Notes: generated by a model not told the origin, from the letters alone. DNA of 64,000 bases from Anaerolineae bacterium (GCA_028285185.1 JANQQD010000325.1:1-64000), one strand, 5' to 3'. Positions 10,869 to 19,739 are shown, numbered from the stretch's first letter. Translations and numbers: made by a program.

Positions 10869-10995
10869 AGGGAACGGTTTTCGTCGCGTCGGGTCTTCAG
10901 ACCTCCCCCGGATATGTGGAACAAGGAAGGTTTGACCACCGCGGATTCCGCAAATGGAAGCCCCGGCGTGAGTGATGTGCGGAAGGACGTTGGAG

Positions 10996-12042
10996 ATGAC
11001 CGAACCAAGAAAGGGCCTGTTGGAGCGGCTGGCCGAAGGCCCGGTGATCGTGGCCGAAGGGTATTTGTTCGAGCTTGAGCGGCGGGGCTATCTGCAGGCC
11101 GGGCCGTTCGTGCCGGAGGTGGTGCTTGAGCATCCCGAGGTGGTCACACGGCTGCACGAGGATTTCGTGCATGCCGGCAGTGAAGTCGTCGAGGCGTTCA
11201 CCTACTACGCCCACCGCGAGAAGCTGCGGGTGATCGGGCGCGAGGACGACCTGGAGCGGATGAACCGGCAGGCGCTGCGCATCGCCAAGGATGTGGCGGA
11301 TCGGCATGGCTGCCTGATGGCCGGCAATATCTGCAATACCAACGTCTACGAAGCCGGCGACCCGGCAACGCACAAGGCCGTCCGCGCCATGTTCGAGGAG
11401 CAGATTGGCTGGGCCGTTGAGGAAGGGGCTGATTTCCTGATCGCCGAGACCCTCGACTGGCAGGGTGAGGCAGAGCTGGCGCTGGAGGTGATGAAGGCGA
11501 CCGGATTGCCCAGCGTCATCACCTTCTCCGTGCACCGGGACGAGGTCCTGTTCGACGGGGTCGACATCGTCGAGGCGTGCCGGCGCCTGGCGGATGCCGG
11601 CGCGGATGTCGTCGGCCTGAACTGCCAGCGCGGGCCGGAGACGCTGATGCCGGTGATCCGGCGCGTGCGCGAGGCCGTGTCGTGCCATGTCGCCGCCCTG
11701 CCCGTGCCCTACCGCACGACGGCAGCGGAACCGACCTTCCAGTCGCTGACGGACAGGGGCTGCGCCTGCATCCCCGACGACCGCCCGTTCCCGACGGCGC
11801 TCGACCCGTTCACCTGCAACCGCTACGAATGCGCCGAGTTCGCGCGCGCGTGCCTGGCGCTGGACGTGCGCTACATCGGCCTCTGCTGTGGGGCGGCACC
11901 GCACCACATCCGCGCGGTCGCAGAGGCGGTCGGCAAGACAGCACCCGGCAGCCGCTATGCCCCCGACATGTCCAAGCACGCGTTCTTCGGCACCGATGCG
12001 GCGATTCCGGAGCGCTACAAGGGCCGGCGCGCGGAGATCTGA
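10996..12042 (+). CDS. Homocysteine S-methyltransferase family protein (BHMT-like)
   Basis: A 348-residue TIM-barrel zinc enzyme of the homocysteine/betaine-homocysteine methyltransferase family. The zinc thiolates are Cys210 (GLNCQ) and the pair Cys297-Cys298 (LCCGAAP). The length matches stand-alone BHMT-like proteins and not MetH. It should move a methyl group from betaine, dimethylglycine-type donors, S-methylmethionine or SAM to homocysteine. The start at 10996 is preferred over the upstream GTG (10972) and ATG (10975) because GGAAGGA at 10981-10987 is well spaced for it. I see no SAM or SAH riboswitch in the upstream gap. Confidence 0.88.
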   Translation: MTEPRKGLLERLAEGPVIVAEGYLFELERRGYLQAGPFVPEVVLEHPEVVTRLHEDFVHAGSEVVEAFTYYAHREKLRVIGREDDLERMNRQALRIAKDVADRHGCLMAGNICNTNVYEAGDPATHKAVRAMFEEQIGWAVEEGADFLIAETLDWQGEAELALEVMKATGLPSVITFSVHRDEVLFDGVDIVEACRRLADAGADVVGLNCQRGPETLMPVIRRVREAVSCHVAALPVPYRTTAAEPTFQSLTDRGCACIPDDRPFPTALDPFTCNRYECAEFARACLALDVRYIGLCCGAAPHHIRAVAEAVGKTAPGSRYAPDMSKHAFFGTDAAIPERYKGRRAEI

Positions 12043-12067: not shown

Positions 12068-12997
12068 CTACTCGGCCGACGGTTGCGGCCGTCGGGCGCG
12101 GGCGATCTCTTGGCGGGCGACCAAAAGCGCGCCGAGCACGACGAGCGTGGCCGCACCAGCAAAGACCGGCTGCGGCCAGCCGCCGAACAGCAGTACATCG
12201 CTTGAAACGGCCCACAGCACGGTCACGTATTCGAACGGCGCCAGCGCGGATGCCGGTGCATAGCGGAAGCTGACCGTCATGGCGATGTGGGCGGCACCGC
12301 CGAACAGTCCGGCGCCCACCAGCAGCGCGGCCTCGCCCGCCGTCGGCAGAACCCAGCCGAAGGGTGCGGTGGCGAGGCCGGCCAGCGTGCACACCAGGGC
12401 GAAATAGAACGCGATCGCACCCGGCGATTCCGATTGGGCCAGGCGGCGAAGCTGCATCAGCGCACCGGCAGTCAGCAGCGCGGTGAGGACGCCCAGGCCA
12501 AGGCCGATCAAGCGCCCATCGCCGGCGCCCGGCGCCGCCACTTCGGGCACCAGCAGGATCGCGACGCCGGAAAGCCCCAACAGGACGCCTGCCCACCGCA
12601 CCGGCGAGACGTGTTCCGCCAGCAGCGGCCCCGCCAGGATCACGACGAACAGCGGCGACAGGTAGGTCAGCAAGGTCGCTTCAGCGACCGGCAGAAATCC
12701 CAGCGTGGCAAAAGAGGCGAACATTGCCAGGCAGCCCAGCACACAGCGCACCAGATGCCCCATCGGCCGTTCGGTCGCCAAGCCCTGCGGCCATTCCCGG
12801 CACCACACCAGGAACAGGACGAGCGGCACCATGGCCACGGCACTGCGGAAGAAGACGATCTGCCCGACCGGCACATCCGCCGACAGGCCCTTCACGCAGC
12901 ACGCCATCGCGACGAACAGCACGCCCGACAGGACCCTGAGGCCGATGCCGACGGGCACCGTGCCGCGGCTCTCGCCCGGAAGCCGCGATGCGCTCAT
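12068..12997 (-). CDS. DMT-superfamily transporter (EamA domains), last gene of the ABC operon
   Basis: A 309-residue protein of about ten membrane helices with two EamA repeats (about 18-150 and 160-290). The first contains the family-typical VGQIVFFRSAVAMVP stretch. Its ATG at 12997 overlaps the stop of the upstream ABC permease gene by four bases (12994-12997), so it is translationally coupled to the importer operon. DMT proteins are mostly exporters of amino acids or other small metabolites. Here it may handle the same substrate as the importer or a related metabolite. That role is inference from linkage only. Confidence 0.85.
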   Translation of the reverse strand: MSASRLPGESRGTVPVGIGLRVLSGVLFVAMACCVKGLSADVPVGQIVFFRSAVAMVPLVLFLVWCREWPQGLATERPMGHLVRCVLGCLAMFASFATLGFLPVAEATLLTYLSPLFVVILAGPLLAEHVSPVRWAGVLLGLSGVAILLVPEVAAPGAGDGRLIGLGLGVLTALLTAGALMQLRRLAQSESPGAIAFYFALVCTLAGLATAPFGWVLPTAGEAALLVGAGLFGGAAHIAMTVSFRYAPASALAPFEYVTVLWAVSSDVLLFGGWPQPVFAGAATLVVLGALLVARQEIARARRPQPSAE

Positions 12998-13884
12998 GAC
13001 GTGGCCGCGGCGTAGCGGTCGCGGAGGCTGTCCCCGATCAGGTTGAAGGCGAGCGCCGACAGCATGATCGGCACGCCGGGCAGGATCGCATAGTGCCAGG
13101 CGGACAGGATGTAGCTGCGCCCTTCCAGCAGGATCGTGCCCCATTCCGGGTTCGGGGGCTGGACGCCGAACCCCAGGAAACCGAGGCCGGAGATGGCAAG
13201 CACCGAGCGCGAGACATGCGCCGTCATCATCACGATCACCGCCCCGGTGCTGGCCGGCAGCAGGTGATGCCGCACGATGCGCAGCCATCCGACACCGTTG
13301 AGGCGCGCCAGCTGGACATGCTCCCGGTCCCGCGCCGCCAGCGTGATGCCGCGGACCAGACGCGCATACCGCATCCAGCCGACCACGCCCAGCGCCAGCA
13401 GCAGATGGCCACCGCCACCCCCTAGCACGCCGGCCACCGCCAGCGCCGCCACCATTTCCGGGAACGCGAAGAAGATATCGGTCAGCCGCATCACCGCATC
13501 GTCCAGCCACCCGCCGCAGGCGCCTGCGACGAGGCCGATCACGATGCCGACGGCGGCGGAAACCAGGACGACGGCGATCGCCATGCCGATCGAGACCTGC
13601 GCACCGGCAAGCGTGCGCGACAGGAGATCCCGGCCTAGATGGTCGCCGCCCATGGGATGGTCCCAGCTGGGCGGCGCCAACCGCAACCCGGCCAGGGGCT
13701 CAAGCGGATCGTAGGGCGCGATCACCGGCCCGATAGCGGCGATTACCAGTGCTACCGCAGCTACTGCCCAGGCTGCCACGGTGATCGGGTTCCCGAAGGT
13801 TCGCGCGCGTCCGCGGCCGTTCACCGGGGGCTCCGGCACCGGACGGTAGGGGCTTCCGATCGGCGTGACCGGGCCGCTGGTCAT
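12994..13884 (-). CDS. Peptide/nickel-type ABC transporter permease (DppC/NikC class)
   Basis: A 296-residue membrane protein with an N-terminal cytoplasmic tail, a first helix at about 30-55, the DppC-class periplasmic motif HPMGGDHLGRDLLSR, and five further helices. The EAA-type loop for ATPase contact is in the C-terminal half (ARLNGVGWLRIVRHHLLP). It overlaps the DppB-type gene by four bases (13881-13884) and the EamA gene likewise, so this is one tightly coupled operon. It forms the channel with the DppB-class subunit. Confidence 0.9.
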   Translation of the reverse strand: MTSGPVTPIGSPYRPVPEPPVNGRGRARTFGNPITVAAWAVAAVALVIAAIGPVIAPYDPLEPLAGLRLAPPSWDHPMGGDHLGRDLLSRTLAGAQVSIGMAIAVVLVSAAVGIVIGLVAGACGGWLDDAVMRLTDIFFAFPEMVAALAVAGVLGGGGGHLLLALGVVGWMRYARLVRGITLAARDREHVQLARLNGVGWLRIVRHHLLPASTGAVIVMMTAHVSRSVLAISGLGFLGFGVQPPNPEWGTILLEGRSYILSAWHYAILPGVPIMLSALAFNLIGDSLRDRYAAATS

Positions 13885-14825
13885 CGCATGCCCTCGCGCG
13901 TCCTCGGATCCAGCCACCAATAGAGCAGGTCCACCAGCAGGTTGAGCGTGACGAACACGATGGCGCTCAAGAGCACGATCGCCTGGATCACGGGATAGTC
14001 GCGCGCATCCACCGAATGCACGAACAGCTGGCCGATGCCGTTCCAGGCAAAGACGTATTCCACGGCCACGGCGCCTTCGAGCAGGAACCCGATCTCCAAC
14101 GCAAAGATGGTGATCACCGGGATCAATGCGTTGCGCAACGCGTGCCGGCCGATCACGCTGCGTTCCGCGATGCCGCGCCCGCGCGTCGCCTGCAGGTGAG
14201 CCGCACTCAGGATGTCGATGACGGAGGCACGCAAAAGGCGGGCCGTGTAGACGGTGATGCCGGTGCCCAGCGTGACCGCCGGCAAGATCAGGTGCTCCCA
14301 CCCGCCGCGGCCGAAGGCCGGCAGCCAGCCCAGTTGAACCGCGAACACGAAGATCAGCAGCACGCCGAGCCAGAAATTGGGCATCGCCGCCCCAAGCGAG
14401 GCCAGGGCCACGCATATCGAGTCGAACCAGGTTCCCCGATAGACGCCGGCCATCAGACCGAGCGGGATCGACAGTACGACGGCCACCGCAAGCGCTGCCG
14501 CCGCCAGCTGCAAAGTTCGGGCGAACCGCTCGGCCAGAAGCTCGCCGACCGGGCGACCATCCACGAGCGAGCGCCCGAGATCCAGGGCAAGGACATGGCG
14601 CGACCAACGCCAGAACTGGACCACGAAGGGCTGGTCCAGCCCTTCCGCCTCGCGGATCCGGTCCAGGGTCTCATGGTCCAGGGCCGCGTCCGAGCCGTAG
14701 CGCGCTTCGGCGATGGCCATGGCCGCGTCGCCCGGTGCCAGGGACAACAGGCAGAAGGTCAGGAAGGTGGCGCCGGCGAGCACGACCCCGGCGCCTAACA
14801 CGCGCCTGACGGCAAAGGCGATCAT
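13881..14825 (-). CDS. Peptide/nickel-type ABC transporter permease (DppB/NikB class)
   Basis: A 314-residue membrane protein with six predicted helices. It has the DppB-type N-terminus (helix at 10-30, then SLAPGDAA) and a C-terminal EAA loop (ATRGRGIAERSVIGRHALRNALIP). The start ATG at 14825 overlaps the upstream ATPase stop by four bases. The frame is open further upstream, but that portion lies inside the ATPase gene. It pairs with the DppC-class subunit to form the translocation pore. Confidence 0.9.
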   Translation of the reverse strand: MIAFAVRRVLGAGVVLAGATFLTFCLLSLAPGDAAMAIAEARYGSDAALDHETLDRIREAEGLDQPFVVQFWRWSRHVLALDLGRSLVDGRPVGELLAERFARTLQLAAAALAVAVVLSIPLGLMAGVYRGTWFDSICVALASLGAAMPNFWLGVLLIFVFAVQLGWLPAFGRGGWEHLILPAVTLGTGITVYTARLLRASVIDILSAAHLQATRGRGIAERSVIGRHALRNALIPVITIFALEIGFLLEGAVAVEYVFAWNGIGQLFVHSVDARDYPVIQAIVLLSAIVFVTLNLLVDLLYWWLDPRTREGMR

Positions 14826-15700
14826 CCCACGACCTTCGCAGCCACGTCGGATGGCGCGCGCATCAGCGCTGTTCGCCGTGCCTCGCGACTGTGGAAGCTT
14901 TCCACCAGCCGGCGCGCCTCGGGATGGTGCGGAGTGGTGAAGAACCGATCCACATCGCAAAGCTCCACGATGCGGCCCTTGTCGACAACGGCCACCTGCG
15001 TGCCCAGCCGGCGCACCAGACGCAGATCATGGCTGACCAACACCAGGGTTGCAGCGGTCTCTCGGTGGATCCGCTCCAGCAAATCCGCCACCTGCTTCTG
15101 TACGATGGCATCCAAAGCACTCAGCGGTTCATCAAGGAACAACAGCCTCGGTTCCGTTGTCAGGGCGCGTGCGAGGCACGCCCTCTGACACTGACCGACG
15201 GAGATCTGAGACGGTCTGCGGCTCAGGATCTCCGCTGGCAATCCCATGCGGCCGGCGAGATCGACGCAGCGGGCCCGCCATTCGGATGCGGGCATGCCGC
15301 GCGCGGCCAAGGGTTCCGCGATACCGTCCAGCACCGACATGTGCGGGTTGAGCGCCGCCACCGGATTCTGGAACACCGCCTGCGCGGCGCGCCGCAGCCG
15401 CCTGTGCGCCCGATCGAGCGGCCGCGTCACCGTCTGCCCGTCGAAGCTCAGTTTGCCCGAGGTGAAGCGGGAGAGCCCCAGCACCGCCTTGATCAGCGTC
15501 GATTTGCCGCCGCCGCTAGGGCCGACGATGCAGAGCACATCGCCACTGCGGATGGAAAACGTGGCGCCGTCGACGAGCATTGTCCGCCGCCGCCGCGCGT
15601 TGCGAACCGCCACGGAAAGGCCGCGCACCTCCAGCAGCGCATCGGATGCGCCGGCCGCGCTACCAGGCGGCGCTGGCGACAAGGCTGCGGGTGTAGTCAT
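14822..15700 (-). CDS. ABC transporter ATPase (DppF/NikE class)
   Basis: A 292-residue ATPase with Walker A GPSGGGKST, the Q-loop in QAVFQNPVAALNPH, and Walker B LLFLDEPLSALD followed by the H-loop in LVSHDL. The ABC signature reads ISVGQCQR, with Val where LSGGQ has its first Gly. I have the impression that SVGQ variants occur in this family. The ATG at 15700 overlaps the end of the upstream ATPase by 41 bases; a later start cannot be excluded. It should drive transport together with the DppD-class subunit. Confidence 0.88.
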   Translation of the reverse strand: MTTPAALSPAPPGSAAGASDALLEVRGLSVAVRNARRRRTMLVDGATFSIRSGDVLCIVGPSGGGKSTLIKAVLGLSRFTSGKLSFDGQTVTRPLDRAHRRLRRAAQAVFQNPVAALNPHMSVLDGIAEPLAARGMPASEWRARCVDLAGRMGLPAEILSRRPSQISVGQCQRACLARALTTEPRLLFLDEPLSALDAIVQKQVADLLERIHRETAATLVLVSHDLRLVRRLGTQVAVVDKGRIVELCDVDRFFTTPHHPEARRLVESFHSREARRTALMRAPSDVAAKVVG

Positions 15701-16508
15701 GGCTGGGCGACGACAGGACGGTGCGGGCGGGGCCGGAGTCCACGAGGCACCCTTGATGAAGCACGGCGATGCGGTGACAGACCTGCGCCGCCGTCGACAG
15801 ATCATGGGTAATCAACAGCACAGCCAGATCGTGCCGTGCGACAAGGGCGGAGAGGTCTTCAAGCAGACGATCGGCGATCGGCAGGTCCAGCGCCGCCGTC
15901 GGTTCGTCGAGCACCAAGAGCCCGGGGGCCGGCCACGCCGCCATGGCGAACAGCACCCGCTGCAGCATGCCCCGGCTCCACTGGTGGGGGAACTGCCGAT
16001 GGCGCCGTGCCGGCCGGTCGATCCCGACCCTGCCAAGCACGGTATCGATGGCTGCCTCCATGACCTTGCCGTTGCCGCCTGCAGTCCCGTTCGGCTGTGG
16101 GTCGCGCAGAGCGGGGCGATGGGTGTCGGCGAACTCCCGCAACTGGCTGCCGAGCGTGAAGACCGGATCGAGAGCGCCGATCGGGTCCTGCTGCACCAGC
16201 GCGATCTCGCGTCCGCGCAGGCGCCGCATCTCGCGTTGCGACACCCGCACCAGATCGCGGCCGCGGAAGCTCAGCCTACCGGACCGGATGGCCAACGGTG
16301 CCTCCAGCCGCATCAGGCAGCGGGCAATGGTGCTCTTGCCCGATCCGGACTCACCGACCAGACCCACGATCTCGCCCGCGCCCACGGACAGCGACACACG
16401 ATTCAGGATCGGTGTCGCGCGCCCGTCGGGCGGCGCCACAGTCAGGCCTTCGATCTCCAGCATCGCAGGCGCCGGATCGGGCCCTTGGGCCTGGTCGGCG
16501 ATGGACAT
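15660..16508 (-). CDS. ABC transporter ATPase (DppD/NikD class)
   Basis: A 282-residue ATPase with Walker A GESGSGKST, Q-loop IALVQQDPIGALDP and Walker B LLVLDEPTAALD followed by LLITHDL. The signature is WSRGMLQR, so the first Gly of the usual FSGGMRQR-type motif is Arg. Both ATPases of this importer therefore deviate at the same signature position. It is shorter than many OppD/DppD proteins and lacks most of the C-terminal oligopeptide extension. It begins one base after the stop of the solute-binding protein gene. Confidence 0.88.
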   Translation of the reverse strand: MSIADQAQGPDPAPAMLEIEGLTVAPPDGRATPILNRVSLSVGAGEIVGLVGESGSGKSTIARCLMRLEAPLAIRSGRLSFRGRDLVRVSQREMRRLRGREIALVQQDPIGALDPVFTLGSQLREFADTHRPALRDPQPNGTAGGNGKVMEAAIDTVLGRVGIDRPARRHRQFPHQWSRGMLQRVLFAMAAWPAPGLLVLDEPTAALDLPIADRLLEDLSALVARHDLAVLLITHDLSTAAQVCHRIAVLHQGCLVDSGPARTVLSSPSHDYTRSLVASAAW

Positions 16509-16509
16509 G

Positions 16510-18063
16510 TCAGTGGGCGACCGACATGGTGTTGTTCACCAGATAGATGCCGGCCGGATGCAGCGAGAAACCCTGAACGTGGGTGTGCCATACGGCCAGC
16601 CGGTTCTTGTAGAAGGCAGCCGCGACGGGCAGCTCTTCATGGAGGATCTCCTGCATGCGGTCGAAGATCGGGGCGCGTTCGTCCGCATCGAAGGTGCTGA
16701 TGCCGTGGTCCAGCAAGGTATCGAACTCTGCATTCGACCAGGCCCCGAAATTCTCCAGCGCGCCGGTGCGGAAGGTGAAATTGGGGAAGTAGGCGGGATT
16801 GCCGGTCGGGGCGGAATTGCTGCTGAACATCAGCATATCGGCGCGCCCTTCGCGGAAATCGTCGACGGCAACGGTCCAGTCGCGCAAAACCTGAAGATCG
16901 CTGTCGATACCATGCTCGCGAAGACGCGCGAGATAGAGCTCCGCCGCCGGCTGCATGGACGGACGGCCGACGTAGGATCGCACGACCAGACGGAACGGCT
17001 CTCCGTTCTGGTCCAACAGGCCGTCGCCGTCACTGTCTTCGATGCCGGCTTCGGCCAGGAGGGCGAGCGCGCCGGCGGGGTCATAGGGCGTCGGCTCCAG
17101 CGCCTGGTTGGCCCAGGGTGCAGTCGGCGGGAAGATGCCGACCCCAGGCGTGCCACCCAGGTCGTTCAGCACCGTTTCCACAATCTCTTCGCGCGGCATC
17201 ATCAGGCTCAGCGCCTGACGGACGCGCAGATCGGCCAAGGGGCCCGTGTTGACCTGCAGGAAGAAGAACATCAAGCGCCCGGTGGACACCGCCTCCATGG
17301 CCAAGTCGTCGCGGCCCTCAACGCGATCGAGATCCGTATCCGGAAAGTTGGCCGCGATGTCGATGTCGCCCGCTTCCAGCGCCAGCATGACGGTCGCCGG
17401 GTCGGTGATCGTCAGCAATTCCAGCCGATCGACGGCAGCCGCACCGCCCCAATAGTCGTCGAAGCGGACGGACACGATGCTTTCGCCGGGCGTGACGGTG
17501 TCGAGCACGAACGGCCCCGTGCCGTAGAACCGGTCGGCTGTCGTTCCAGGAGAGAGGATAGCAAGGCCCGGATCGACGAGATCGTTCAGGAAGGCGGCGT
17601 TAGGCTCAGCGGTCTCGATCCGAACGGTCAACTCATCGACGACCTCAATGTCCTCGATCCCGATCAGCGAGGCGATCCGCTCGTTGTGAACCGGGCTTTC
17701 GGGGTCGATCACCCGGTTCAAGCTGAATTCCACGGCTTCGGCCGTCATCGGCATGCCATCATGGAACACCACGCCGTCCTTCAGCTCGATCTCCCACACC
17801 GTGGGCTCGACGGCAGTCGCACTCTCCGCCAGTCGCGGTTCGAGCTCCAGGTCCCGGTTCAGCCAGAACAGCGTTTCCGTGATGCCGGCATCGCTGGTGC
17901 GCCAGCCGTTCCACCCCGACGCCGGGTCAGGGTTCGGATGATCGAACCCAAAGGGAATGGCGATCCTGATAGTGGTCTCGTCAGCCAATGAGTGGCCGCT
18001 GACAGCGGCGACACAGAGCGAAGAGGCCAGGATGGCGGCCGTCCGTCGAAGAGTAGTGTGCAT
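16510..18063 (-). CDS. Periplasmic solute-binding protein, SBP_bac_5 family (peptide/nickel type)
   Basis: A 517-residue precursor with an N-terminal signal peptide (about 1-28, cleavage near SLADE) and the family-5 core, including LELKDGVVFHDG-like sequence (here IELKDGVVFHDGMPM) and the TGPFVLD motif. It is first in a six-gene minus-strand operon. Family 5 binds peptides, nickel or cobalt metallophore complexes, and other solutes. A cobalamin riboswitch lies upstream on the same strand, so a cobalt-linked or B12-related substrate is the most economical guess. Known B12-riboswitch targets include cobalt importers, but no metal ligand can be read from this sequence. Confidence 0.85.
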   Translation of the reverse strand: MHTTLRRTAAILASSLCVAAVSGHSLADETTIRIAIPFGFDHPNPDPASGWNGWRTSDAGITETLFWLNRDLELEPRLAESATAVEPTVWEIELKDGVVFHDGMPMTAEAVEFSLNRVIDPESPVHNERIASLIGIEDIEVVDELTVRIETAEPNAAFLNDLVDPGLAILSPGTTADRFYGTGPFVLDTVTPGESIVSVRFDDYWGGAAAVDRLELLTITDPATVMLALEAGDIDIAANFPDTDLDRVEGRDDLAMEAVSTGRLMFFFLQVNTGPLADLRVRQALSLMMPREEIVETVLNDLGGTPGVGIFPPTAPWANQALEPTPYDPAGALALLAEAGIEDSDGDGLLDQNGEPFRLVVRSYVGRPSMQPAAELYLARLREHGIDSDLQVLRDWTVAVDDFREGRADMLMFSSNSAPTGNPAYFPNFTFRTGALENFGAWSNAEFDTLLDHGISTFDADERAPIFDRMQEILHEELPVAAAFYKNRLAVWHTHVQGFSLHPAGIYLVNNTMSVAH

Positions 18064-18138
18064 TGGAGGCTTTCCGGTGCTGCGGCTTTAGGACTCGGTG
18101 CCGGGTCGTGGGCAGGCTGCGATGCCGAGGGGTGAGGG

Positions 18139-18161
18139 TATATGTAACGTTATATCATTTC
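18139..18161 (-). promoter_or_regulatory. A/T-rich dyad upstream of the importer, possible operator
   Basis: An A/T-rich island in GC-rich surroundings contains the 8-bp palindrome TAACGTTA (18145-18152). On the minus strand the island runs GAAATGATATAACG and onward. It lies 80-100 bases upstream of the solute-binding protein start, where a promoter or operator would be expected. It bears a loose resemblance to A/T-rich metalloregulator boxes, but the outer arms are imperfect. I make no firm regulator call. Confidence 0.3.
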
Positions 18162-18400
18162 TTTTCTCGCATTGCCGTCAAGCCCTGGTTGACCGTGCCG
18201 ACTGCCTCTCTGCCCAGCGTCCGAAGGACGCAAAGGAAGGGGACTAGTGTGACATCGCCGGCTGACGCAGCAGGCAGAACCACCCGTCCCACTGCGAGGC
18301 TCGCGCCTCCGCAGCACCGGTCGAACGCTGCTGTCTTTTGATTGTGCGAGCATGCGCACGCGCGCGACGGCGCGGACGCAAGGTCCAGACCTGTGTGCAT
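18155..18400 (-). CDS. Possible leader ORF directly after the riboswitch
   Basis: An 81-codon open frame with ATG at 18398-18400 is preceded by a GGGGA stretch about 7 bases upstream. It stops 92 bases before the importer gene. The product is Cys/Ala-rich (SRACACSHN, then FDRCCGGAS) and I recognise no family. Its value is positional: it begins about 40 nt after the cobalamin aptamer, and its ribosome site sits next to a 7-base element complementary to the aptamer end. It may be a regulatory leader or simply untranslated mRNA. Confidence 0.22.
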   Translation of the reverse strand: MHTGLDLASAPSRACACSHNQKTAAFDRCCGGASLAVGRVVLPAASAGDVTLVPFLCVLRTLGREAVGTVNQGLTAMREKK

Positions 18401-18439
18401 GTCGTCATCCCCGGTTCACCCCGCCCGGTTGCGGATCCC

Positions 18440-18640
18440 ATCGGTGACGACGGCAGGTCTCCTGGCTTGCGGGTCGTTGCGTTGGCCCCAGCCTTCCCGG
18501 TTTCCCAGTGGCATTCTCGGGGTACGCTCGCCGCTCACAGTTGCGGGGGCAGCCGCGGACTTGACTCCCGACTTGGGTCGGTCGCACCGCGTTCCCTTTT
18601 CATCCGAGGGTCTTAGGACCCCGGCGGAACCGTCGAGTAC
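18440..18640 (-). ncRNA. Cobalamin (B12) riboswitch
   Basis: Read on the minus strand, the conserved aptamer elements appear in order. They are AAAAGGGAACGCGGTG, then CCGCGGCTGCCCCCGCAACTG (the B12 box core), GAGCGGCGAG, GCCACTGGGAAACCGGGAAGGC and AGCCAGGAGACCTGCCGTC. P1 can form between CGACGGT (18629-18635) and GCCGTCG (18448-18454). The only minus-strand gene set downstream is the ABC importer whose first start is at 18063. The class is certain from the core. The leader of about 380 nt is long, and the gap 18064-18821 holds no other gene that I can support besides the doubtful leader ORF. The divergent DUF1289 gene starts at 18822. Confidence 0.95.
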
Positions 18641-18821
18641 CAAGGTACATCGCACCAAGCGCTGCCGCCGTCAAGCGATGCCGCCTATGGCATCGGCTTG
18701 CGACGTCTGGACACGTTGTCGCTCTGGTCCGGTGATCCGACGGTTGCGGAGAGCGCAAGTCGCAAGCCCTCAGGATCGAGACCGGATCTGCATTGCCGAT
18801 CGCTCGGGAGGACACCGCATC

Positions 18822-19739
18822 ATGATCTCACCGCCTGCACCAGCGACCCCAAACCAGGTGGCAAGTCCCTGCGTCGGCCTCTGCCGGCTGGACGATCAGA
18901 CGGGGTTTTGCCTTGGATGCGGTCGTACGGGCGGCGAAATCGCCGAATGGAGCAGGGCTCCGGAGGAACGGCGAAGGACGATCTGGCTTTCCCTGCCGCA
19001 GCGGTTTCAAGCACTGGGCATCTCGACCCGGCGGCTGCCTTGGACGGATGCCGAGGTTGCCGATTTCGTTGAGCACAGCATCCGGGACGCGTCGGGAACC
19101 TGGGTGATGGGCGTCTACGGCGCCATCGGCGAGTTCACGCGCGACGCCGACGAGGCGGTGTCAGTGACACGGACCTCCGATGTCGTGGAGGCCGTGACGG
19201 ATCGTGCGGCACTTCGCCTGACCCTCGGGAACGGACTGCGCGCTCTTGAGGCCGAGGCGGAAACCGGGTTGCCCGCCGATCGCCGCATCGTGCTTGCCAT
19301 TCTGAAAGAGAACCTGCACCTGCCCGTTGCGACAGTTTTCACATCGCTCGGTCCCGACACGCGGGCAATCCGTGCCGGCGACCGTTCGTCACGCCTGTAT
19401 GATTTCGGCCTCGGGCGAGCCGCGGCACGCTTCTGTGTGCGCACCGCCGATGCATCGCTGGCGCCGGCCCTGGCGGCGGCTGTCGGGCAGCCATGGCCCG
19501 GCTATCTGGGCACCTTGGCGCGGGCGCTGATCGCGGCAGGCCCGACACGGGTTATCGAGACGGGATTGGGCCGAGTCGAGATCGACGCCCCGATCCCGCC
19601 GCCCGGAGGGTCTTCGCCACCCGGTCCGCACACGCATCTGCTGCCGGACCACCTCGCCCTGTACCGTGAGGCGCCGCCAGCGATCGGTATCCCCGCCGCC
19701 TATTCCGTCGGCGCAATCTTCTATCCCAACCGACGGTGA
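18822..19739 (+). CDS. DUF1289 protein with a long C-terminal extension
   Basis: A 305-residue protein. The DUF1289 motif occupies about residues 16-55, with Cys17, Cys21, Cys30 and Cys33 (CVGLC and CLGCG) followed by EIAEW, and probably binds a metal or Fe-S centre. DUF1289 proteins are often under 100 residues; here about 240 extra residues follow, with no family I recognise. The start at 18822 has a GGGAGGA site about 10 bases upstream, although the frame is open far beyond it through the riboswitch region. The gene is divergent from the B12-riboswitch operon, so a shared promoter region is possible. Confidence 0.75.
   Translation: MISPPAPATPNQVASPCVGLCRLDDQTGFCLGCGRTGGEIAEWSRAPEERRRTIWLSLPQRFQALGISTRRLPWTDAEVADFVEHSIRDASGTWVMGVYGAIGEFTRDADEAVSVTRTSDVVEAVTDRAALRLTLGNGLRALEAEAETGLPADRRIVLAILKENLHLPVATVFTSLGPDTRAIRAGDRSSRLYDFGLGRAAARFCVRTADASLAPALAAAVGQPWPGYLGTLARALIAAGPTRVIETGLGRVEIDAPIPPPGGSSPPGPHTHLLPDHLALYREAPPAIGIPAAYSVGAIFYPNRR

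Follow-up and report, generated by a model that had tools for sequence, protein, structure and literature searches.

A candidate cobalt/zinc importer operon with an EamA transporter behind a cobalamin riboswitch and a predicted Zur box

Introduction

Previous studies have predicted NikABCDE-type ATP-binding cassette (ABC) operons behind B12 riboswitches in Clostridium tetani and Desulfitobacterium hafniense (PMC2667541), and the B12 riboswitch of Sporomusa nikA has been put to experimental use (PMC9600662). In Paracoccus denitrificans, the cluster-C ABC operon pden1338-1344 is bound by Zur, repressed by zinc and raised 8-16 fold on zinc depletion; the published Zur boxes of this species, such as GTAACGTAATAACAT, include one before the cluster-C binding-protein gene pden1341 (PMC5387054). 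The EamA-family protein CntI exports pseudopaline in a Zur-controlled cnt operon, and this pathway also raises cobalt (PMC5719457). In the EamA-type zincophore clusters covered by one survey, uptake relies on importers of the FecCD type (PMC7438024), so an EamA protein paired with a Nik-type importer would be unusual. A wider question is how cells that synthesise B12 acquire cobalt and tell it from zinc. In the present study, we analysed a 64,000-nucleotide (nt) stretch of DNA listed under Anaerolineae bacterium (GCA_028285185.1, JANQQD010000325.1:1-64000; hereafter the window), in which a cobalamin riboswitch precedes a six-gene operon for a Nik/Opp-type importer and an EamA transporter. We propose, with a probability of about 60%, that the operon encodes a cobalt/zinc importer, probably of a chelate, together with an EamA ligand exporter, and that it is expressed at low B12 or low zinc; the metal substrate, the ligand export, the binding of Zur and the effect of B12 are inferred from sequence.

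Results

Gene content and leader of the operon

The features of the operon and its leader were as follows.

12068-12997, minus strand: EamA/DMT-family transporter, last gene of the operon (PF00892)
12994-13884, minus strand: permease 2, NikC/Opp2C-like (PF00528; NF045474, 274.6 bits against a cut-off of 300)
13881-14825, minus strand: permease 1, NikB/Opp2B-like (PF00528; NF045470, 346.5 bits against a cut-off of 350)
14822-15700, minus strand: ABC ATPase 2, NikE-like (PF00005; TIGR02769, 205 bits)
15660-16508, minus strand: ABC ATPase 1 (PF00005)
16510-18063, minus strand: family-5 binding protein (SBP_bac_5), NikA-like (PF00496, 273 bits; NF045468 (Opp5A_nikA), 253 bits)
18142-18161, minus strand: Zur-box-like double site, GTAACGTTATATC and GTTATATCATTTC (plus-strand letters), offset 5 (position weight matrix, 15.8 and 13.8 bits)
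18154-18181, minus strand: sigma-70-like promoter, TTGACG-16-AATGAT, the only one within 18000-18900
18155-18400, minus strand: leader open reading frame (ORF) of 81 codons (only 32 codons in the related locus L014)
18398-18412, minus strand: predicted regulated ribosome-binding site and start codon, GGGGATGACGACATG, identical in the window and the related loci L013 and L014
18411-18428, minus strand: putative P13/L13 hairpin, CCGG-GCGGGGTGAA-CCGG, kissing partner of L5, conserved in the same three loci
18435-18649, minus strand: cobalamin riboswitch aptamer RF00174 (cmscan, 124.1 bits, E 1e-30, full length, model 1-189)
18537-18553, minus strand: aptamer L5 region, GCTGCCCCCGCAACTGT, with the loop CCCCCGC complementary to L13

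The six genes were joined by three 4-nt ATGA-type overlaps, an overlap of about 40 nt between the ATPase genes and a 1-nt gap 3' of the binding-protein gene. The RF00174 match (gathering score, 31.5 bits), the Pfam domains and these overlaps confirmed the description in an earlier note on this DNA, which had placed a minus-strand cobalamin aptamer 5' of six tightly packed genes for a SBP_bac_5 protein, two ATPases, two permeases and an EamA transporter. The binding protein, the two binding-protein-dependent permeases and the two ATPases formed a complete Nik/Opp-type (cluster C) ABC set in one operon. The binding protein scored under the NikA equivalog cut-offs (TIGR02294, 136 against 393 bits; NF045468, 253 against 600 bits) and the permeases fell narrowly under those of Opp2B and Opp2C, so that by profile thresholds the operon is not a NikABCDE equivalog. 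An EamA protein and an ABC importer shared one operon; an EamA or major facilitator superfamily exporter beside an ABC importer is one of the marks of opine (Cnt-type) metallophore systems. The AlphaFold model of the binding protein had a mean predicted local distance difference test score of 36, too low to use. Overall, we consider metal import by the operon quite probable.

Cobalamin riboswitch

The platform formed by L13, the ribosome-binding site and the ATG at 18400 was identical in three genomes, and the sequences diverged directly after it, which gives it the appearance of a translational switch on the leader ORF. The P13/L13 hairpin was found again in four further loci (L019, L093, L203 and L205). 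The leader ORF was rejected as a conserved small protein, since its window and L014 versions were without similarity, and no intrinsic terminator was found in the leader. The aptamer ends 371 nt before the binding-protein start, beyond what a direct translational riboswitch needs. In L014 (genome G015), the aptamer and the platform up to the ATG were retained and the remaining leader had diverged; only this operon lies downstream on that strand, so selection on the riboswitch most likely acts through the operon. The effect of the riboswitch on the operon would be indirect, by read-through or Rho; that B12 affects operon expression at all is rather likely.

Zur-box-like site and promoter

To score Zur sites, we used a matrix built from five published P. 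denitrificans sites (alphaproteobacterial boxes). The double site, with its two matches at 18144-18161, had the best score in the whole window; it lies between the aptamer and the binding-protein gene, 80-90 nt before the latter, and overlaps the sigma-70-like promoter. Such sites were expected by chance about 1e-4 times per leader, and the pair of boxes at a 5-nt offset occurred zero times in 3.8 Mb of random sequence, with the caveat that the window site had first been spotted by eye. The site matched the pden1338 box at 13 of 15 positions. A 20.1-bit Zur-like site lay 60 nt before the orthologous binding-protein start in L014, and a 22.3-bit double site lay about 85 nt before that in L016 (genome G270), which has no riboswitch. 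The leaders could not be aligned at the box, yet the sites occurred at a similar place in all three. An exact Zur box, in the same double form with a 5-nt offset, also preceded a FUR-family gene adjoining an ABC ATPase gene elsewhere in this genome (L148), which we read as a putative zur-znuC pair. Taken together, the predicted site suggested that Zur probably controls the operon. Among the surveyed loci, a B12 riboswitch was followed after 230-350 nt by a strong Zur box and then by a TonB receptor in L165 (1150-3703; G296) or a FecE-type ABC importer in L203 (1150-5032; G270).

Conservation in close relatives

Close relatives of the binding protein were few, namely in G009 (same genus, 92% identical), G015 (same family, 78%) and a Rhodobacteraceae contig (L019, 70%). 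Four genomes of this subfamily retain the B12 riboswitch next to the binding protein, and three retain it with the whole operon. G009 and G015 hold all six operon genes at 66-96% identity; the L019 contig ends within the first ATPase gene. The order in L019 was riboswitch, DUF1289-DUF6925 gene, DUF1636 gene and binding protein, and the terminal TGA of its leader ORF overlaps the ATG of the DUF1289 gene. In this locus and in Sinorhizobium medicae, described below, the riboswitch is predicted to be directly coupled to the operon. The more distant L016 retained the full six-gene set, EamA included (46-51% identical), and had no riboswitch.

The earlier note had read the link between riboswitch and operon from order and strand; the linkage proved to be above chance and was kept in G009, G015 and the Rhodobacteraceae contig. 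That note had proposed a search for the same gene order behind cobalamin riboswitches in other genomes; the layout recurred in these relatives, the L019 contig showing the riboswitch and the binding protein, and S. medicae has an operon of similar make-up that was put together independently. More distant binding-protein matches (Trueperaceae, Chloroflexi, Clostridia and others) were taken as ordinary paralogues, and none of the 14 such loci scanned had a cobalamin riboswitch.

A second binding-protein lineage and the EamA clade

Through plasmid EamA relatives we reached S. medicae pSU277_4 (L093), where a riboswitch stands directly at the start of a DUF1636 gene and is followed by genes for a S-adenosylmethionine-dependent methyltransferase, a family-5 binding protein, two permeases, a fused ATPase and EamA. 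This binding protein was about 24% (22-25%) identical to that of the window and grouped with proteins of G287 and G178. The operons of G287 (L135) and G178 (L137) comprised a COG0523 GTPase, DUF1826 and/or DUF1636, a family-5 binding protein, EamA, permeases and ATPases; no riboswitch was found at L135 or L137, and a perfect Zur box lay upstream of the L137 operon. DUF1826 is a marker of zinc starvation. COG0523 is a member of the Zur regulon (PMC5387054). Thus, two distant binding-protein lineages each include members with B12 riboswitches and members in Zur or zinc contexts; both signals are compatible with cobalt and zinc, the metals we therefore favour.

Among 29 EamA proteins compared in a tree, 10 of the 16 in the clade of the window protein lay beside ABC importers, and none of the 13 in the other clade did; these counts serve as a guide and not as a strict test, because the sample was gathered by similarity. 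The clade of the window protein recurs in operons for metal importers. A close EamA relative was joined to FecCD-type importers in Rhodobacter capsulatus and Shinella.

Several further layouts were observed around this importer family. In L205 (G015:C58:15460-22680), a B12 riboswitch lay directly before an operon for a family-5 binding protein of a further, different lineage (27% identical), two permeases and two ATPases. In L181 (G373:C1:4055720-4062930), a B12 riboswitch was followed by a TonB receptor, a membrane-protein-like ORF and a family-5 importer, which looks like a route for cobalt-chelate uptake from the outer membrane to the cytoplasm. Two divergent B12 riboswitches were present at 1379-1990 of L093, and the perfect inverted repeat AATGACATAA-N8-TTATGTCATT between them (1610-1637) is a candidate regulator site. 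Importer relatives in L083 (G265) and L082 (G285) were without EamA, and next to each a gene resembling a regulator, annotated as Rrf2 in the relative L094, is transcribed divergently; L083 also lies near a Fur/Zur-family gene and a gene for a histidine-rich protein.

Genome context and neighbouring genes

The assembly comprised 7.0 Mb in 402 contigs with 8.5% estimated contamination, and its nearest relatives were metagenome-assembled Alphaproteobacteria. It held five B12 riboswitches, that of the operon included. Of the other four, one preceded cobU-cobW-cobN and one a TonB gene; the third stood before a TonB receptor and its FecCD/ATPase set, and the fourth before ABC genes that include a ZnuA-like binding protein and are followed by NicO. 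With cobU-cobW-cobN and the TonB receptor/FecCD/ATPase set (BtuB-BtuCD type), each behind its own riboswitch, the organism makes B12 and has a separate set for its uptake. Two marks of a B12-controlled cobalt importer were found, namely a riboswitch linkage retained in other genomes and a B12-making genome. Searches of the genome for CbiM and CbtA gave no match for either.

The fourth of these sets (L011, G000:C214, 6470-10667) consisted of the B12 riboswitch, an ABC ATPase, an ABC-3 permease, the ZnuA-like binding protein and a His-rich NicO, and is a candidate second unusual cobalt importer. A ZnuA protein 74% identical to that of L011 stood behind a riboswitch in G015 (L206), and NicO relatives stood behind riboswitches in G009, G225 and G314. 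The TonB energy-transducer gene in L009 (G000:C175, 5872-8374) had its own B12 riboswitch, 2.5 kb from that of the receptor.

Two plus-strand genes flank the operon.

10972-12042, plus strand: homocysteine S-methyltransferase-like gene, tail to tail with EamA
18855-19739, plus strand: divergent DUF1289-DUF6925 gene

In G314 and G225 (L169 and L198), relatives of the former (55-56% identical) come immediately after a B12 riboswitch, which suggests a B12-independent methionine route. A relative of the latter is the first gene of the L019 riboswitch operon, and others end BtuB-BtuCD riboswitch operons in three genomes (L167, L170 and L172); its product is a recurrent predicted member of the B12 regulon with no assigned function.

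Discussion

In the proposed mechanism, the inner-membrane importer would take up cobalt and/or zinc, probably as a small chelate, and the EamA protein would export the chelator or a molecule akin to it, in the way CntI exports pseudopaline; this role, drawn by analogy, is possible but falls short of likely. The two controls would act in series. The Zur-covered promoter next to the binding-protein gene would open at zinc scarcity. Transcripts from farther upstream would carry the riboswitch, where B12 would hide the leader-ORF ribosome-binding site through the L5-L13 kissing loop, and the hidden start would reduce either read-through, for example through the action of Rho, or translational coupling. 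A shortage of zinc or of B12 would then each be enough to bring about synthesis of the importer.

We considered whether the operon could be a plain Zur-controlled zinc importer, with cobalt uninvolved and the riboswitch serving only the leader ORF or persisting as a remnant. The earlier note had held that a promoter after the aptamer giving all of the transcription would refute a B12 link. A sigma-70-like promoter is present after the aptamer and carries a predicted Zur box, so the objection partly applies, and the zinc side had been missed. The riboswitch-less L016 with its Zur box and the unconserved leader ORF point the same way. Against this stand the conservation of aptamer and platform where the flanking leader is not conserved, the direct riboswitch control predicted for binding-protein-containing operons in S. 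medicae and L019, and the other family-5 operon directly behind a B12 riboswitch in G015; we consider a zinc-only role unlikely. Conversely, if the Zur-like site were a chance AT-rich promoter sequence, the operon would be a pure B12-controlled cobalt importer like NikABCDE. The quality of the box, its double form and the finding of boxes at the corresponding place in L014 and L016 make this improbable, even with the riboswitch linkage, the precedent in C. tetani and D. hafniense (PMC2667541) and the genome without a CbiM or CbtA match in its favour.

The earlier note had also raised import of a corrinoid, which would here mean uptake of a corrinoid or corrin precursor and EamA export of a corrin intermediate. 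Only the control by a B12 riboswitch fits this idea. We rejected it because a separate set of BtuB-BtuCD type, under a riboswitch of its own, exists in the genome, and because the binding protein resembles NikA and has relatives in contexts of metal (zinc) starvation; nothing points to corrinoids, and we regard their import as very improbable. Equally slight are the chances of an ordinary peptide importer that came to lie beside the riboswitch by accident: the family includes peptide importers, and yet the best matches are NikA-like and the linkage is conserved in four genomes and in the independent S. medicae assembly.

Several observations weigh against a doubly controlled cobalt/zinc chelate importer with a ligand exporter. 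On the side of regulation, the start codon under the riboswitch in the window clade lies 336 nt before the binding-protein gene and belongs to a leader ORF that is not conserved, so any effect of B12 on the operon would be indirect in this clade. Genome-wide, the degenerate pattern GTWAYNNNATAWC gave 8 rows and its reversed control 9, which is no enrichment, so the argument for Zur rests on position and recurrence. A B12 riboswitch and a Zur box in tandem were rare (2 of 60 surveyed loci), and on this count we rejected the idea that Zur boxes are enriched after B12 riboswitches across the class. On the side of the substrate, no clear counterpart of the metal-binding residue His416 of E. coli NikA was found in the binding-protein alignment; the aligned position has no His, but the alignment is weak there. 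The operon holds no ligand-synthesis gene, and the opine dehydrogenase CntM (PF10100) had no match in six genomes, where the control was silent too, so that this result is uninformative on absence. Several EamA members of the window clade stand alone, and the Zur-boxed relative pden1338-1344 is without an annotated DMT gene.

If the reading of a cobalt/zinc importer is true, its placement under Zur as well as a B12 riboswitch would directly exemplify a single route that serves both zinc and cobalt supply. From the EamA partner, a cobalt metallophore may be suspected as a secreted ligand; named genes for it are supplied by the window operon and by the version in S. medicae, a species that can be cultured in the laboratory. 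A wider proposal, which we offer tentatively and hold to be doubtful, is that one cobalt/zinc chelate module, made up of a Nik-type ABC importer and a CntI-like EamA exporter, is wired to both controls, that at least two unrelated binding-protein lineages have moved between them, and that an undescribed secreted metal ligand serves B12 synthesis.

Comparison with known systems

The operon resembles the P. denitrificans pden1338-1344 operon in ABC family, alphaproteobacterial origin and a Zur box just before the binding-protein gene, whereas that operon is led by COG0523 and has no reported B12 riboswitch. With Pseudomonas aeruginosa cntO-cntL-cntM-cntI it shares an EamA/DMT exporter in a (here, predicted) Zur-controlled metal operon, and that pathway likewise touches zinc and cobalt; the window operon is without CntL and CntM. 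Opp1/CntABCDF of Staphylococcus aureus is also a Nik/Opp-type importer, of Ni/Co/Zn metallophore complexes, but has a major facilitator superfamily exporter and metallophore synthesis genes and no riboswitch. CbtJKL of Sinorhizobium meliloti (PMC7689651) is likewise an ABC cobalt importer under a B12 riboswitch and belongs to another ABC family, the BtuF/FecCD type. Closest in layout are the clostridial NikABCDE operons, with a family-5 binding protein, two permeases, two ATPases and a B12 riboswitch upstream; a DMT partner or Zur box is not reported there, and the binding protein here falls below the NikA equivalog cut-offs. Because NikABCDE behind a B12 riboswitch had already been predicted in two Clostridia, the core of the operon is not new. 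The B12-linked family-5 importer with a DMT partner put forward in the earlier note was borne out by its conservation in relatives and its independent recurrence in S. medicae, but the novelty that the note had seen in cobalt import did not hold, since B12 riboswitches before importers of this ABC family have precedents (PMC2667541, PMC9600662). As far as the literature searched extends, the new elements are the DMT partner, the double layout of Zur box and riboswitch, and the parallel exchange of both controls.

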